The notes under the pieces are model-generated. The model searched no databases. It worked only from the letters and a program-made list of their open reading frames with translations, and was not told where the DNA came from. A program made the translations under genes and the position numbers. Source: Phycisphaerae bacterium (GTDB taxonomy: Bacteria; Planctomycetota; Phycisphaerae; Sedimentisphaerales; SM23-30). Taken from it: a stretch of DNA of 37,489 nt. Positions 4,470 to 37,489 of the stretch are shown here, in pieces; positions within the stretch are counted from its first letter, which is position 1; each line of letters begins with the position of its first letter. Where the stretch lies: positions 1-37,489 of the forward strand of contig JAEIOG010000046.1 of assembly GCA_016342495.1 (NCBI GenBank), written 5' to 3'.

Positions 4470-4513
4470 TCAGAACCAGTAATTCTTCTGGTGCTGTAGA
4501 AACAATTAAAAAA

Positions 4514-4536
4514 GGCGACCGCTATTAACGATCGCC
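4514..4536 (-). terminator. Rho-independent terminator of the TGA-containing gene
   Basis: Minus-strand reading gives an 8-bp stem with one G-T wobble (GGCGATCG with CGGTCGCC), a 7-base loop and then TTTTTTAATT. It lies 13 bases after the TAG at 4549-4551, not directly after the TGA at 4693. Its position fits the extended reading of the gene. Confidence 0.8.
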
Positions 4537-4548
4537 CTATTGATTACA

Positions 4549-6042
4549 CTATTTTGTTATTGTGACAGTTTTCTTGCCGGAAATTTTACCACAAAGCCCT
4601 TTAGTGTCATAATAAGCTTCGATAGTAATTTTTTTGCCATTGTCGAGTTTCATATCTTCTGGTACACGCCACGTGTACCCGCAAGTTCCTCCTCAGCCAA
4701 AGGGCATTTTGCCCTGAGCAATTTCTTTACCTGTGCTGTCGAATATTTTAACGGCAGGTTCGAGCCTTTCATAATACTTATAGGTGCCATTGCCGCTTTT
4801 TACCTCCCTGACTACTTTACTTTTATCTTGGATACTGGAAAGCTTAACGCCCAGCTTGGGATTACAAAAATAAGCACTGACATACATACTGTTATTTTTG
4901 ATTTTAACATTATCTTTTGCCGGAGCATTAAAGACAGCTTTTAATGATTTGATATCTAAATCTATTGTTTTGTCAGCAGTAATTTCCAGTGGAAATGCAG
5001 CAGTAGAATCATCGCTGTAATTGGCAAGACGAACATCATAATCGCCAGCAATTAGAGATACGCCACTGATTTTGTACTTGCCCACCGGCAAAGTCAAAGT
5101 AGAATCTTTTAAGAATCCGCTATTAGCATCCACTCTTAAATAGCTGGCACTGGATGTCAAAGTAACATTGCTGGCATTGACATTAAGATCACCACAGGAC
5201 AGTTTAAGTTTACCAAGTTTACCCATATAAGGATTAACGGCAAGTTTGTCACCATTTTCTGAAGGAGCAAAAGTCCAATACATACCATCGGCCAGATGAT
5301 ATTGGCCAGCTACCACAGAAGAATAGCGATCCTTATTCATGAAAAAAATATGTGTGGCAGGACTGTCAAATGCTATAGAGATGCATTGCGATTGAGTTAC
5401 AAGAACATCTTTGGTTTTACCAATCAATTTAATCTTGCCAACATAAGCATTTTCACAGAAAAAACCTACACGAAACATATCATTGTTATACTTAACAACC
5501 AAAGGCCAAATGGTAAGTTCCTGACCTTGCGGTTTGATTTTCAAGCTATCAAATAACAAAGTGTTATTTCTGCTACCGCTATTCATGAAATCAAGGGGAG
5601 ATTTTTTAGCAATATTAACAGCCTTATCATTGGTCAGGTCATTATCGAAGTTGGCATCAACAGTAATAGTGTCATAGCCTTTACCTGTCCCTTTTGACTC
5701 ATCCAGAACAAAAAACATTTTTTTGTTTCGGGAATCACTGATGGTATAAGAACTACCCAGAAGAAGATGGCCATAAAGTGGTTTATCCGATTTTAGTTTT
5801 GGATAAGCTTTAACATTATCATCTTTTGGGGATTTTGACGTTAAAATTCCGGGAGCATAATGTGGGGCCATTACCATATATCTGGAACTGGGGGGAATAT
5901 CGATGTCTAAAAGCGAAACTTTCTTAAGGTCAAAAGTTTGAGCTTTTTCGGCAGCGAAAGCCTTGGTTACCGGGCCAGGTAGTGCCAACATGGTCAATAT
6001 GACCAGACAGGCAATAGCCCTTGCGATAGAGAGATGTTTCAT
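4549..6042 (-). CDS. Candidate exported selenoprotein of unknown family (in-frame TGA at 4693-4695)
   Basis: The product would have 497 residues with the TGA as codon 450. The start at 6042 (MKHLSIARA) is chosen because AGAAAGGA lies 7-8 bases upstream and a clear signal peptide follows (AFA-AEK, cleavage near residue 31); an in-frame ATG at 6108 has neither. The body looks like a beta-rich periplasmic protein: repeated Tyr/Asn-rich strands, an acidic VDANFDNDLTND segment and, before the TGA, an Ig-like stretch. After the TGA the frame continues 47 codons with ordinary composition (GGTCGYTWRVPEDM, then LDNGKKITIEAYYDTKGLCG) to TAG, followed by a terminator. Decoding as selenocysteine would give a U-x-x-x-C pair. 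A nonsense mutation of a Cys codon or a sequencing error (TGC/TGT to TGA) is the main alternative. I do not know the family. Confidence 0.65.
4661..4695 (-). promoter_or_regulatory. Candidate bacterial SECIS element with its UGA codon
   Basis: On the minus strand TGA (4695-4693) is followed by 13 bases, then a perfect 8-bp stem GGTACACG (4679-4672), loop TGG (4671-4669) and CGTGTACC (4668-4661). The first loop G lies 22 bases after the UGA. Known bacterial SECIS elements are stem-loops just 3' of the UGA with a small apical loop, a G among the first two loop bases and roughly 16-37 bases of spacing; all three hold here. The hairpin is inside coding sequence (YTWRVP), as expected for this class. 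It is not a terminator, since no T-run follows. Confidence 0.55.
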
Positions 6043-6154
6043 GAGTAAATCCTTTCTGAAACTCGATTTAGGAAAAACAGGCAAGCCACAAAGCGAGCCT
6101 GCAGGCAAGAAAAGATTAGATTAAGAGATATGAAATAAAATTGCAAATAAAAAA

Positions 6155-6176
6155 GGTCGCCGATTAAACGACGACC
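6155..6176 (-). terminator. Rho-independent terminator of the HTH-receiver gene
   Basis: Read on the minus strand, an 8-bp stem with one G-T pair (GGTCGTCG with CGGCGACC), a 6-base loop and TTTTTTATTT follow the stop of the regulator gene by about 150 bases. The stem closely resembles the one at 4514-4536. The remaining sequence between 6043 and 6325 shows no gene. Confidence 0.75.
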
Positions 6177-6325
6177 CTGGATCTATGGATCTCTGTTACT
6201 GCTAAATAGAAACCGAAGTTTCTGCCTCCAAGCAATAACGAGCCAGATTATAATTTTAATTGCCTTTTATATATACTTAGGCCTCATTTATTATAAATTC
6301 AAGTAAAAATCTTATTTATTATATT

Positions 6326-6904
6326 TTAATATACAATTGCCAGAGAATCTTCAATGCAGTCAATCATTTGTTTCATATCAAACGGTCGGCACAGATAAGC
6401 ATCAAAGCCCTGCTGCAACAGTGCATTACCTTCACCTTCGGTCAAATTAGAGGTAATAGCAACGATTCTGGCACCCTGCAACTCGATACTGTCACGAACT
6501 ATACTGCAAATACGTTTTACATTAATATCTTCCAGCATCAAATCAATAAAGATGATGTGGGGCCTAAACTGATCAGCGAGAATACCTGCATCAAAACCAC
6601 ATTCAGCGGTTTGAACTTCGAATCGGTCAGATTTTCCCAGTTCAGCAGCTACAGCATCGCGGATATCCGCTTTATTATCAACAAGCAGGACCCGGGTAGC
6701 ACCTCCATCAAGGCCATTGAGTGGAATACCGTGAGCTCGCATGAACCTAACCAGTTGCGACACCGGTATACGGCGGTCTTTGCTGCCTGGTATTCTATAG
6801 CCCCGTAATTGACCAGAGTCAAACCATTTGGAAACGGTGCGTGGTGCGACATTACAGATTTTGGCTACCTGTCCAGTTGTTAATACATCTTTTCTCTTAT
6901 CCAT
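6326..6904 (-). CDS. DNA-binding HTH fused to a degenerate receiver domain
   Basis: The 192-residue cytosolic regulator has an N-terminal MerR/BldC/excisionase-like helix-turn-helix (residues 8-60: TTGQVAKICNVAPRTVSKWF, then a GYRIPGSKDRRIP wing) and a receiver-like domain from about residue 70. The phosphoacceptor Asp121 (IFIDLML) and Thr151 (AITSN) are present. However, the acidic pair is Asp76-Asn77 (VDN), and the invariant Lys of the KPF motif is Arg173 (CRPF). Domain order is reversed relative to most response regulators. No histidine kinase gene is nearby. With these substitutions it may be regulated by something other than phosphorylation. No strong ribosome binding site is visible upstream of the ATG. 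Targets are unknown. Confidence 0.85.
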   Translation of the reverse strand: MDKRKDVLTTGQVAKICNVAPRTVSKWFDSGQLRGYRIPGSKDRRIPVSQLVRFMRAHGIPLNGLDGGATRVLLVDNKADIRDAVAAELGKSDRFEVQTAECGFDAGILADQFRPHIIFIDLMLEDINVKRICSIVRDSIELQGARIVAITSNLTEGEGNALLQQGFDAYLCRPFDMKQMIDCIEDSLAIVY

Positions 6905-7447: not shown

Positions 7448-9247
7448 ATGAAGAGCCAACATTTATTATTTAATACTTTTCTATTTATTGCCCTTCCAAT
7501 GATTTCAAACGCCGCTCTGGCGACTGACATTACTGGCCAGCTAAAAATATGGCATAAAATCACGTTTACCTTCGCTGGCCCGGCCAGCAGCGAAACTGCT
7601 AATCCCAACCCTTTTCTTGATTATCGTTTGAATGTGACTTTCAGTAATGGCAAAAAACATTATATAATACCTGGCTATTATGCCGCTGATGGTGATGCCG
7701 CCAACACCTCAGCTGATTCTGGAAATAAATGGCGTGTTCATTTTGCCCCTGACAATACCGGCAGCTGGCAGTACAAAGTCTCATTTCGCAAAGGTAAAAA
7801 TATCGCAGTCTCTAACGATGTTAATATCGGTGAAAGTGCTGGCTACATGGATAATCAAACTGGAACTTTTCAAGTAAACCAAACAGATAAAAAAGGTCGC
7901 GATATGCGGGCTAAAGGTCTGCTGCAATATGTGGGCAAAGGACATTTACGCTTTGCCGGAACAGGAAAATATTTTCTGAAGTGCGGAACTGATGCACCTG
8001 AAAATTTCCTTGCATATGCAGATTTCGATGGAGATTTTAAGACTGATGGCCAAAAAGATCAATTAGTCAAAAACTGGCAGCCCCATATTAAAGACTGGCA
8101 AAAAGGTGATCCAACCTGGCAAAACGGTAAAGGCAAAGGTATTATCGGGGCGGTCAATTATCTGGCCGGCCAGGGCTTAAATGTATTTTCTTTTATCACA
8201 ATGAACATCGAAGGTGATGACCGCAATGTCTTTCCTTATATAAATTATAATGAACGAAATCGCATGGATTGTTCAAAGCTGGACCAATGGGAAATCGTCT
8301 TTGCACATGGCAATAACAAAGGTATGTATCTGCATTTTAAGACTTTGGAAACTGAAAATGAATTATTGCTAAACAAAGGCGATCTTGGCAGAGAACGCAA
8401 ATTATATTATCGAGAATTAATAGCTCGATTTGGTCATCATTTAGCATTAAACTGGAACCTCGGTGAAGAAATTAATAATGCGACCACGGCCCAAAAAATC
8501 GCATGGGCAAAATATTTTCATGATAATGACCCCTATAAACACCCTATCGTAATTCATAATATGAATGACCCGCATTATGACCTTTTAGGTAATAAATCTG
8601 AATTGACGGGCTTTTCGCTTCAAACTAATCAGCCCGACTTCAGCAAAGTGCATGATCAGGTTAAAAATTATATAGATCGGTCAATTGCCGCTGGGAAAAC
8701 CTGGGTTGTCGCCTGCGATGAACCGGGCGACGCTCAACATGCATTAATTACCGATGCAGAAGACCCAGACCATGATAATGCCCGCAAAAACGCATTATGG
8801 GGTGCAATTATGGCAGGCGGCGCTGGCATCGAATGGTACTTTGGCTATAAACATCCAAATAGCGATTTAACCTGCCAGGATTTCCGCAGCCGTGAAAAAA
8901 TGTGGCAACAGTGTCGTTATTGCCTGGATTTCTTTGATAAATATCAAATTCCATTCTGGGATATGAAATGCCAGGATGAGCTGACTAATAACAAAGATGA
9001 TTATGTGCTATGTAAATCTGGTGAAATATATCTTGTTTACCTAAAAAATGGTGGCAAAGTAAGTGTTGCCGCAAATGAAGGTAAATTTAATTGTGGGTGG
9101 TATAATCCTCGCACAGGCGATGGTCTGGAAAGCCTGCTGGCAAAATGCGAAATATCTAAAGGAAACAAAATAGAATTAAGTACACCTGATAAAAATGACT
9201 GGCTCTTAGTGATAAGAGGTAATGGTGAACTTAACTTTGATAATTAA
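7448..9247 (+). CDS. Secreted glycosidase-like protein with DUF5060-type N-terminal domain
   Basis: The 599-residue product has a signal peptide (cleavage near ALA-TDITG, residue 26). It then has a beta-sandwich like DUF5060 (about residues 28-135; RVHFAPDNTGSWQYKVSF is typical), a TIM-barrel region like DUF4038/apiosidase-type glycoside hydrolases (about 155-500) and a C-terminal segment like the putative collagen-binding domain (YLVYLKNGGKVSV, CGWYNPRTGDG). Candidate acidic catalytic residues are Glu in NLGEEINN (about 339) and Glu in ACDEPGDA (about 422). The likely role is hydrolysis of a plant or algal polysaccharide outside the cytoplasm. The gene is monocistronic with a GAGGT ribosome binding site. 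The family call is from recognition, not a search, and the substrate is unknown. Confidence 0.8.
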   Translation: MKSQHLLFNTFLFIALPMISNAALATDITGQLKIWHKITFTFAGPASSETANPNPFLDYRLNVTFSNGKKHYIIPGYYAADGDAANTSADSGNKWRVHFAPDNTGSWQYKVSFRKGKNIAVSNDVNIGESAGYMDNQTGTFQVNQTDKKGRDMRAKGLLQYVGKGHLRFAGTGKYFLKCGTDAPENFLAYADFDGDFKTDGQKDQLVKNWQPHIKDWQKGDPTWQNGKGKGIIGAVNYLAGQGLNVFSFITMNIEGDDRNVFPYINYNERNRMDCSKLDQWEIVFAHGNNKGMYLHFKTLETENELLLNKGDLGRERKLYYRELIARFGHHLALNWNLGEEINNATTAQKIAWAKYFHDNDPYKHPIVIHNMNDPHYDLLGNKSELTGFSLQTNQPDFSKVHDQVKNYIDRSIAAGKTWVVACDEPGDAQHALITDAEDPDHDNARKNALWGAIMAGGAGIEWYFGYKHPNSDLTCQDFRSREKMWQQCRYCLDFFDKYQIPFWDMKCQDELTNNKDDYVLCKSGEIYLVYLKNGGKVSVAANEGKFNCGWYNPRTGDGLESLLAKCEISKGNKIELSTPDKNDWLLVIRGNGELNFDN

Positions 9248-36187: not shown

Positions 36188-37489
36188 GGAGGAGTGGCAG
36201 AGTGGTTGATCGCGGCGGTCTTGAAAACCGTTGTACCGAAAGGTACCGGGGGTTCGAATCCCTCCTCCTCCGTTTATAGTATAACCCGCTTTATGGCCTG
36301 AAAAACCTGTTTTTGGCCCCATAAAGCGGGTTTTCTGTTTCATGGTAGTAATAGTATTAAATGCTCGTCTTCGTCCATCGTTATCCACTGAATTTGATTG
36401 TTGCGTGCAGGCTATGTCACAAATTACGTCACAACTATTTTTACCGTTATCGTACTTGTATTGCTTGGGGGTTTTGGCCTCAAATACTACTTCTGTTATA
36501 TCGTCGGTTCCTGTCTTTTTTTGTTCTTGTTTAGCGGTGTTTCTAAAGTCTGGTAGGGCGGCAATTGCTTGGCTCTGCTGGCCCCTTAATGAATGGGTGT
36601 ATCGGCTCATCGTCAAATTAATATCGCTATGCCTCATTAAGTCCTGGGCGGTTTTGGGGTGTACTCCTGACGCAGCCAATAGCGTTCCAAAGGTATGACG
36701 CAAGGCGTGAAAATCCAGCTTGCCGCTGCCGGTGTCCTGATGGTCAATACTTGCGGCTTCATAATCAGCCTTTATCATTCTTGACAGGCTATGAATATCA
36801 GGCATATTAAATGCCTTTGCCTTTGGTAAGTGCTTAGATAGATATTGCTTTAATACCTCGGCAGTATCGGCTTTCAATGGCAGGCTGGCGGTGTTGCGGT
36901 TCTTTGTGTATCCAGCTTCAACTGTTACAATGTTATTATTAAAATCAAAGCTGGCAGCCGTTAAGCTGTTGAGTTCGGACGCTCTCAAGCCTGTTTCAAC
37001 TGCTAAGCGATACAATAAAGCCCGCTGGTATCCGTCCATATTGCCCCTGGGCGGCTGCTGGGCGGTCGTTTGCAATAATCTGGCTATTTCCTCCACTTCC
37101 AAAGCCCGGCGGCGTATGCTCTCGCTCTTGTCGATCTTAATAGGCTTCAAATATTCAACTGGGCTTTCGGTGGCTCGGCGATCATCTATCATAAAATTAC
37201 AAAACTGTTTACATGCCTGTAAATAGCTGTTGGCTGTCCTGCTGCCTATCCCGGTTTTACCATCAGCCTGGGCTTGTCTCAATTTACCGATATACTTTTG
37301 TAAGGTGCTGGCGCTAACATCTGACCAAAGGCGAAAACCGCAACCGTCAAAAAGTCTCTTTACCCGGTCATATTGCTGCTTGGCTTGCTTTTCGGTATTG
37401 CCCCCGGCAAGGATATTGTGCTTGAAGTCTTCAAGGTGTTCGCTAAGCTTCTTGCCACTGGCTGCCCTGGTGGCGGTGACAATATCAGC
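36176..37489 (-). CDS. Tyrosine recombinase/integrase (N-terminus beyond the window)
   Basis: The frame is open from the right edge, so 437 residues are visible and the N-terminus is missing; a TTG at 37282 is internal. A SAM-like core-binding domain ([20 protein letters not shown]) precedes the catalytic domain. Catalytic residues are Arg in TGLRASEL, Lys in YTKNRNT, His-x-x-Arg in HALRHTF, His in LMRHSD and the nucleophile Tyr in SRYTH. A long unstructured tail follows, and its last roughly 30 residues ([17 protein letters not shown], then [11 protein letters not shown]) are encoded by the antisense strand of the tRNA-Ser gene. It faces and overlaps that tRNA, as expected for an integrase whose attachment site is the tRNA 3' end. 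Confidence 0.9.
36188..36272 (+). tRNA. tRNA-Ser (anticodon UGA)
   Basis: The 85-base gene folds as a class II tRNA. Acceptor arms GGAGGAG and CTCCTCC pair perfectly with discriminator G73. The anticodon stem CGGTCTTGAAAACCG carries TGA in the loop. A variable arm TACCGAAAGGTA forms the long extra stem, and the T-loop is GTTCGAATC. The CCA end is not encoded. It decodes UCA codons and is not tRNA-Sec, whose anticodon would be UCA. Confidence 0.96.
36240..37489. mobile_element. Left edge of a tRNA-Ser-integrated element (continues past the window)
   Basis: The integrase gene starts outside the window and runs into the 3' part of tRNA-Ser, the classic edge of an integrative island or prophage. 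The attachment core should lie within the tRNA 3' half (about 36240-36272). The other end, with a second copy of that core, is not in the window, so element size and cargo are unknown. Confidence 0.6.
36283..36332 (+). terminator. Terminator of tRNA-Ser inside the integrase gene
   Basis: A 14-bp perfect inverted repeat (AACCCGCTTTATGG with CCATAAAGCGGGTT) with a 22-base loop lies 10 bases after the tRNA and is followed on the plus strand by TTCTGTTT. It lies within the integrase coding region on the other strand. Confidence 0.7.

Follow-up and report, generated by a model that had tools for sequence, protein, structure and literature searches.

Bacterial selenoproteins are covered by a catalogue of 119 prokaryotic families (PMC13188914, May 2026), in which a bSECIS model asks for a loop of 3-9 nt with a G in its first two positions, a UGA-to-loop distance of 16-37 nt and an MFE of -7.5 kcal/mol or lower, and whose authors call Cys homologues usual for selenoproteins. 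According to the deep-Sep paper (PMC12013277), Cys homologues now seem to exist for every known selenoprotein, and its own filter may discard selenoproteins that have none; such homologues have since also been reported for GrdA (glycine reductase selenoprotein A), long held to be the sole selenoprotein without them. Planctomycetes and Verrucomicrobia are not mentioned in the catalogue text, and a 2016 paper (PMC4807772) refers in general terms to selenoproteins in two planctomycetes. Here, we compare with these systems a gene from a Phycisphaerae bacterium that very probably encodes a selenoprotein, its role being treated separately and with more caution.

The UGA codon, its reading frame and the downstream hairpin

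The window is the whole stretch of DNA that was analysed, 37,489 nucleotides of contig JAEIOG010000046.1, and the features discussed are collected in Table 1. The minus-strand frame 6042-4549 runs from MKHLSIARAIACLVILTMLALPGPVTKAFA to KMPFG, reaches TGA (4695-4693) in the context MPFG-TGA-GGTCGYTWRVPED, and continues as GGTCGYTWRVPEDMKLDNGKKITIEAYYDTKGLCGKISGKKTVTITK for 47 sense codons to TAG (4551-4549), confirming the in-frame TGA at codon 450, the length of the extension and the terminator reported in a preliminary description of this DNA. A second terminator-like hairpin (6178-6153) lies upstream of the gene. Directly upstream, the window also encodes a small protein (6326-6904, minus strand) that reads by eye as a DNA-binding HTH fused to a response-regulator receiver domain.

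Table 1. Features of the candidate selenoprotein gene, in window coordinates
Feature	Position	Strand	Details	Basis
Selenoprotein gene (candidate)	4549..6042	-	497 residues with Sec450, TAG counted in	Relatives share read-through frame
TGA codon 450, probably read as selenocysteine	4693..4695	-		Frame reading and homologues
U-G-G-T-C motif	4681..4695	-	Sec450 to Cys454	Cys at +4 in 125/125 loci; invariant alignment columns
N-terminal signal peptide, predicted	5953..6042	-	~30 residues (MKHLSIARAIACLVILTMLALPGPVTKAFA)	Read from sequence
bSECIS hairpin (candidate)	4661..4679	-	8-bp stem, UGG loop, within coding sequence (YTWRVP)	
C-terminal macroglobulin/Ig-like domain, predicted	4552..4950	-	Residues ~365-497	AF2, VIA-align; Pfam MG2 weak
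Shared module			Distal part of C-terminal domain, residues ~424-497	
Terminator-like hairpin	4512..4538	-	Just 3' of TAG	

The 8-bp hairpin with a three-base loop put forward in the same description was recovered as the stem-loop GGUACACG-UGG-CGUGUACC (4679-4661), which starts 13 nt 3' of the UGA. With a UGG loop that has G at its second position, a UGA-to-loop distance of 21 nt and an MFE of -12.5 kcal/mol for a 46-nt stretch (z -2.2 against dinucleotide shuffles), it falls within all four limits of the bSECIS model. Taken alone, the hairpin is only mildly unusual; it exceeds chance because the TGA is conserved in paralogues and relatives and because the stem is kept far beyond codon constraint. 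For the seven central stem pairs, 829 of the 875 cells from 125 distinct loci are paired, compared with a mean of 517 and a maximum of 550 when codons were swapped for synonymous ones drawn from the same gene, the counts here and for compensation being of sequences and not of independent events. Full stems are present in 91 of the 125 loci (synonymous-codon expectation 2.5, maximum 9), and stem pairing, 95% in register, is no higher than 59% once the partner is slid. As the 3' arm of the stem lies outside the retrieval pattern, its pairing is free of selection by the search.

Compensatory changes at four stem pairs occupy 23 cells, whereas shuffles gave 2.0 on average and never more than 6. 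RNA element and protein motif evolve jointly, their changes tracking the stem pairs: several compensations entail amino-acid changes. Tyr to Phe is coupled with Val to Glu (GGTTCTCG/CGAGAACC), and in two paralogues from the window's own genome (L035, L047) a Gly third base changes together with Pro to Ala. Over the 48 nt that follow the UGA, folding energy shifts weakly against synonymous shuffles (mean z -0.46; control windows +0.08) because of competing structures, which leaves the stem-specific test as the informative one. An Rfam scan returned sub-threshold chance matches alone.

Conservation of the UGA and the selenocysteine machinery of the hosts

When the full read-through product was compared with 98 related genomes in a protein search, matches were obtained in 17, nearly all with exactly one internal TGA, which the alignment puts at U450. 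Rather than all ending at this position, an outcome that the preliminary description had named as damaging, homologues continue past the TGA site with flanks conserved on both sides and the read-through frame retained. That description had treated the gene as a single secreted protein, and while the gene itself stood, the scale was understated: the window protein carries the C-terminal module, some 70 residues long with TGA at the same place, of many differing exported proteins. The module is present at more than 100 loci, and a DNA pattern search for the motif with TGA, covering one genome per species in ~85,000 species, returned at least 115 stretches. Since the same TGA recurs at more than 100 independent loci, a sequencing error is untenable. 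Among the matches listed, modules come from Planctomycetota, Verrucomicrobiota, Lentisphaerota, Hydrogenedentota, Sumerlaeota/BRC1 and Riflebacteria, with one further stretch from an unclassified bacterium. Four short chance pattern matches (L062, L076, L133 and L148, from Deltaproteobacteria, Ureibacillus, Methylotenera and Pseudoalteromonas) were left out, and a viral scan with the TGA pattern yielded nothing.

The window's own genome has seven module genes on five contigs, all with TGA at the same place. Three module genes stand in tandem at one locus of this genome (L170, C26, 4477-7878), each cut at the UGA by standard ORF calling and followed by a glutathione-peroxidase-like gene with Cys (8151-8759). 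Profile searches that did not favour TGA gave the same picture, with one TGA in 39 of 40 matches among 392 genomes of the window's phylum, TGA in 23 of 23 matches in nine genomes from other clades, and TGA in 14 of 14 among 388 genomes of the phylum of a Verrucomicrobiota member. With all loci pooled, TGA occupies the site in 247 of 253 partly redundant module instances and a Cys codon in none; the exceptions are Gly, Tyr and one degenerate Thr copy. Among these rare copies, L213 (G085:C71) has Gly (GGA) in MPLGGGGTCAYSWQVP, and L211 (G147:C186) has Tyr (TAT) with an insertion beside the site. Residues that are invariant or nearly so in the module are G-U, G, C at +4, Y/F, S/T, W and R.

A search for the Cys version of the motif across the ~85,000 species genomes gave 55 stretches and no confirmed relative. 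At position 450, where Cys or U had been anticipated, U was thus borne out by UGA nearly throughout and Cys was never found. The Cys-containing homologues usual for selenoproteins are accordingly missing from the ~85,000-genome scan and from the 253 instances, and as the catalogue authors describe such homologues as usual, we read their lack as a departure and not as an exclusion.

A changed genetic code, with UGA read as Trp, Gly or Cys, would let a UGA within the frame do no harm, but TGA is the final stop of 53 of 122 module genes, so UGA is still a stop in the module hosts, and each gene has one in-frame TGA, always at the same motif position. With UGA also terminating many of these genes, we consider this reading refuted and assign it next to no probability.

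The selA, selB, selC and selD genes sought in the same genome were found, disposing of the objection that the host might have no sel genes. The genome encodes a tRNA-Sec (73.6 bits; called SeC with anticodon tca by ARAGORN), SelB (336 bits), SelA (541 bits) and two SelD proteins. The second SelD (L228, C205) carries a UGA at the active site known for SelD (APCAGUVGKL) and, as a member of a known selenoprotein family, is an internal positive control for this genome. In the window itself, 36188-36271 (plus strand) scores 42.6 bits with the tRNA-Sec model, short of the cut-off of 47, and is presumably a different tRNA whose variable arm is also long. Genes for SelA or SelB were detected in 50 of the 54 module-bearing genomes tested (the SelB of L070 included), the remaining four (G007, G086, G085 and G668) all being drafts, with G007 and G086 78% and 76% complete and G085 in 1,150 contigs; within the window's phylum, 242 of the 392 genomes sampled carry selA.

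Module genes and sel genes are also often neighbours. None of the seven module genes of the window's own genome lies on a contig stretch that holds sel genes; in relatives, module genes are often within ~2 kb of them (G109, G402, G128, G375, G013, G069, G083, G048 and others). Of 115 loci no longer than 8 kb, 31 contain at least one sel gene, 23 encode SelB and 20 encode SelA, where a chance estimate from one sel copy per ~4.5 Mb genome gives well under one locus each.

The UGA might also be a true or leaky stop at which an ordinary amino acid is inserted, selenium taking no part and the extension being rare or regulatory. Read-through by another tRNA is formally possible, a conserved hairpin 3' of the stop could stimulate it, and the single Gly, Tyr and Thr variants at the site would fit. 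However, SelB and tRNA-Sec occur in nearly all hosts, module genes cluster with selA, selB and selD, the loop, spacing and energy of the hairpin are those of the bSECIS model, and tolerance of ordinary residues predicts frequent sense codons, which are almost never seen. We give a leaky stop only a very slight chance and conclude from these sequence comparisons that UGA450 is almost certainly decoded as selenocysteine.

Predicted fold, neighbouring genes and possible roles

Module proteins fall into three forms by their length after Sec: ~41 residues, ~48 residues (the window type) or 270-320 residues. Those with ~41- or ~48-residue tails are the soluble exported proteins, and the 270-320-residue form, found at about a third of loci, has about seven hydrophobic segments after the UGA, corresponding to about seven membrane helices. 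These features could point to a selenium-dependent switch, in which a full protein (in some cases with a membrane part) is made with selenium and a shorter soluble product without it, and Sec-synthesis genes do lie nearby in a quarter of loci. Yet the Cys at +4 and the Trp and Arg that follow are conserved as in an active site, and most forms have 41-48 residues after Sec that complete the Ig-like domain, so that a truncated form would lack strands; we regard such a switch as unlikely.

In AlphaFold2 models, where Cys stands for Sec, the window protein has a pLDDT of 85.7, falling below 50 in the U-C loop, and its N-terminus is a helix at residues 2-20 followed by a low-confidence stretch at 21-28. 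A minimal family member, modelled from a 48-row alignment, reached a pLDDT of 96.4 and a pTM of 0.89. The window model is all-beta except for the signal helix and short helices, and with the U-x-x-x-C motif in place of UxxC or CxxU this led us to reject a thioredoxin-fold selenoprotein. VIA-align matches with Z up to 8.5 include alpha-2-macroglobulins, of which E. coli and Salmonella domains are among the best matches, complement and CopC; these Z values are middling, and the likeness may reflect a common arrangement alone. Pfam MG2 matched 14 of 48 members (E up to 0.1, best 6.5e-6), mostly weakly and below Pfam cut-offs where shown, and the FlgD Ig-like profile gave weak matches in six of the 48. 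The whole window protein had no Foldseek match at E <= 0.001, nor did a profile search against solved structures return anything. The C-terminal domain is predicted to be a macroglobulin/Ig-like sandwich with Sec in a Gly-rich U-x-x-x-C loop.

Other neighbours were named by profile on representatives. HGD-D/double-cubane reductases were found in 18 of 115 loci and ArsM/DVU_1556-like methyltransferases in 14. In the sel cluster of G033 (L208), a double-cubane reductase (409.7 bits, over the cut-off) adjoins a methyltransferase of this type (4558-5892 and 5792-6679, both minus strand), a pairing that recurs in other loci. NapH-like iron-sulfur membrane proteins occur in 16 loci, 14 of them paired with the seven-TM selenoprotein form; 4Fe-4S examples are found in L147 (3342-4463, minus), L069 (4069-5205, plus) and L207 (10882-11736, minus). 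CarboxypepD_reg proteins with an AhpC-TSA end are present in 11 loci, and an outer-membrane Phenol_MetA_deg protein, together with an SsuA/NMT1-type ABC transporter, in 10, only beside 41-residue forms. The SsuA/NMT1-type binding protein, present in seven loci, is weakly SaoX-related (E 2e-7, far below cut-off). In the loci with this set (L144, L082, L103, L075, L088, L095 and L106), the binding protein has a CCC motif. SelD is fused to an AhpD/CMD domain in seven of the 115 loci. Such fusions recur near module genes (L207, 15923-17545, minus; L064, 6146-7798, plus) and combine a Cys-rich N-terminus (MQRSxRLGHCxCDPKKPCPCD) with a CxxC in the C-terminal AhpD/CMD domain.

Neighbours that encode methyltransferases, reductases and transporters suggest the main functional alternative, a selenoprotein whose Sec-Cys loop mainly captures or converts an extracellular soft metal, metalloid or selenium compound instead of carrying out thiol redox chemistry. 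Besides these neighbours and the Phenol_MetA_deg proteins, the fact that Sec is never replaced by Cys suggests selenium-specific chemistry. Most loci, however, lack such neighbours, as does the locus in the window itself. The likeness to CopC reflects a common sandwich fold at middling Z and was not counted as a sign of copper binding. We view a metal or metalloid role as possible but the less probable reading.

For an extracytoplasmic redox role, the best supported of the functions considered, to which the U-x-x-x-C motif and the neighbours point, we put the chances at about even; the non-thioredoxin fold makes redox chemistry of the module uncertain, and function, unlike selenoprotein status, is the weak part of the case. 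In the overall reading that we favour, host SelB and tRNA-Sec would decode UGA450 as Sec, directed by the hairpin 13 nt downstream that is itself coding, and the product would be exported via its signal peptide. Sec450 and Cys454 in the flexible Gly-rich U-GGx-C loop could then alternate between the selenol/thiol state and a Sec-Cys selenenylsulfide; in the membrane-bound forms, NapH-like proteins might supply the electrons. More broadly, we lean toward a Sec-only macroglobulin/Ig module, shared by Planctomycetota, Verrucomicrobiota and nearby phyla, that forms the reactive end of many exported or membrane proteins, in which selenium-specific chemistry would bar Cys and the SECIS would have shaped the protein sequence.

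Comparison with known selenoproteins

No matching family was found among the 119 families of the catalogue (PMC13188914). NCBIfam (June 2026), searched with the window protein, its relatives and 48 module proteins, has no family model that covers the module, the PDZ matches in L102 falling outside it, and a Pfam scan gave no model for the module. The module behaves as a selenoprotein in the tests applied here, but its fold, setting and substitution pattern were not found listed in these three resources. Programs that look for selenoproteins depend on known families or on homologues with Cys and would filter out a family in which Cys never occurs, and standard gene callers would annotate module genes, often several per genome, as proteins ending at the UGA. 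The module is also a clear-cut case in which to ask why Sec is retained.

The module family would be an exception to the Cys-homologue rule of the deep-Sep paper (PMC12013277). It differs from GrdA in that no Cys homologue of the module was found, protein and fold being unrelated. Like the selenoprotein genes of the SAO/Tso operons of Haft and co-workers, which are cited in the catalogue (PMC13188914), module genes have methyltransferase or ABC-transporter genes as neighbours. None of the NCBIfam models for these operons matches the module, however, and its hosts are Planctomycetota, Verrucomicrobiota and relatives. The representative neighbours scanned included no other recognisable sao or tso gene. 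With MG2 (PF01835) and FlgD Ig-like (PF13860) domains, the module shares a predicted beta-sandwich and the weak profile matches described above. MG2 domains are not known to carry Sec or a conserved Cys pair at the corresponding loop.

With the catalogued bacterial selenoproteins (PMC13188914), the module has in common an in-frame UGA, a G-loop hairpin 21 nt on, hosts with selA, selB, selC and selD, and a Cys near Sec; it differs in having U-x-x-x-C where they commonly have UxxC or CxxU, and no Cys homologue of it was found. The commonest fold in that catalogue is Trx-like, whereas the module is predicted to be Ig/macroglobulin-like, and it would extend selenoproteins beyond this dominant fold to an exported Ig/macroglobulin-like domain.
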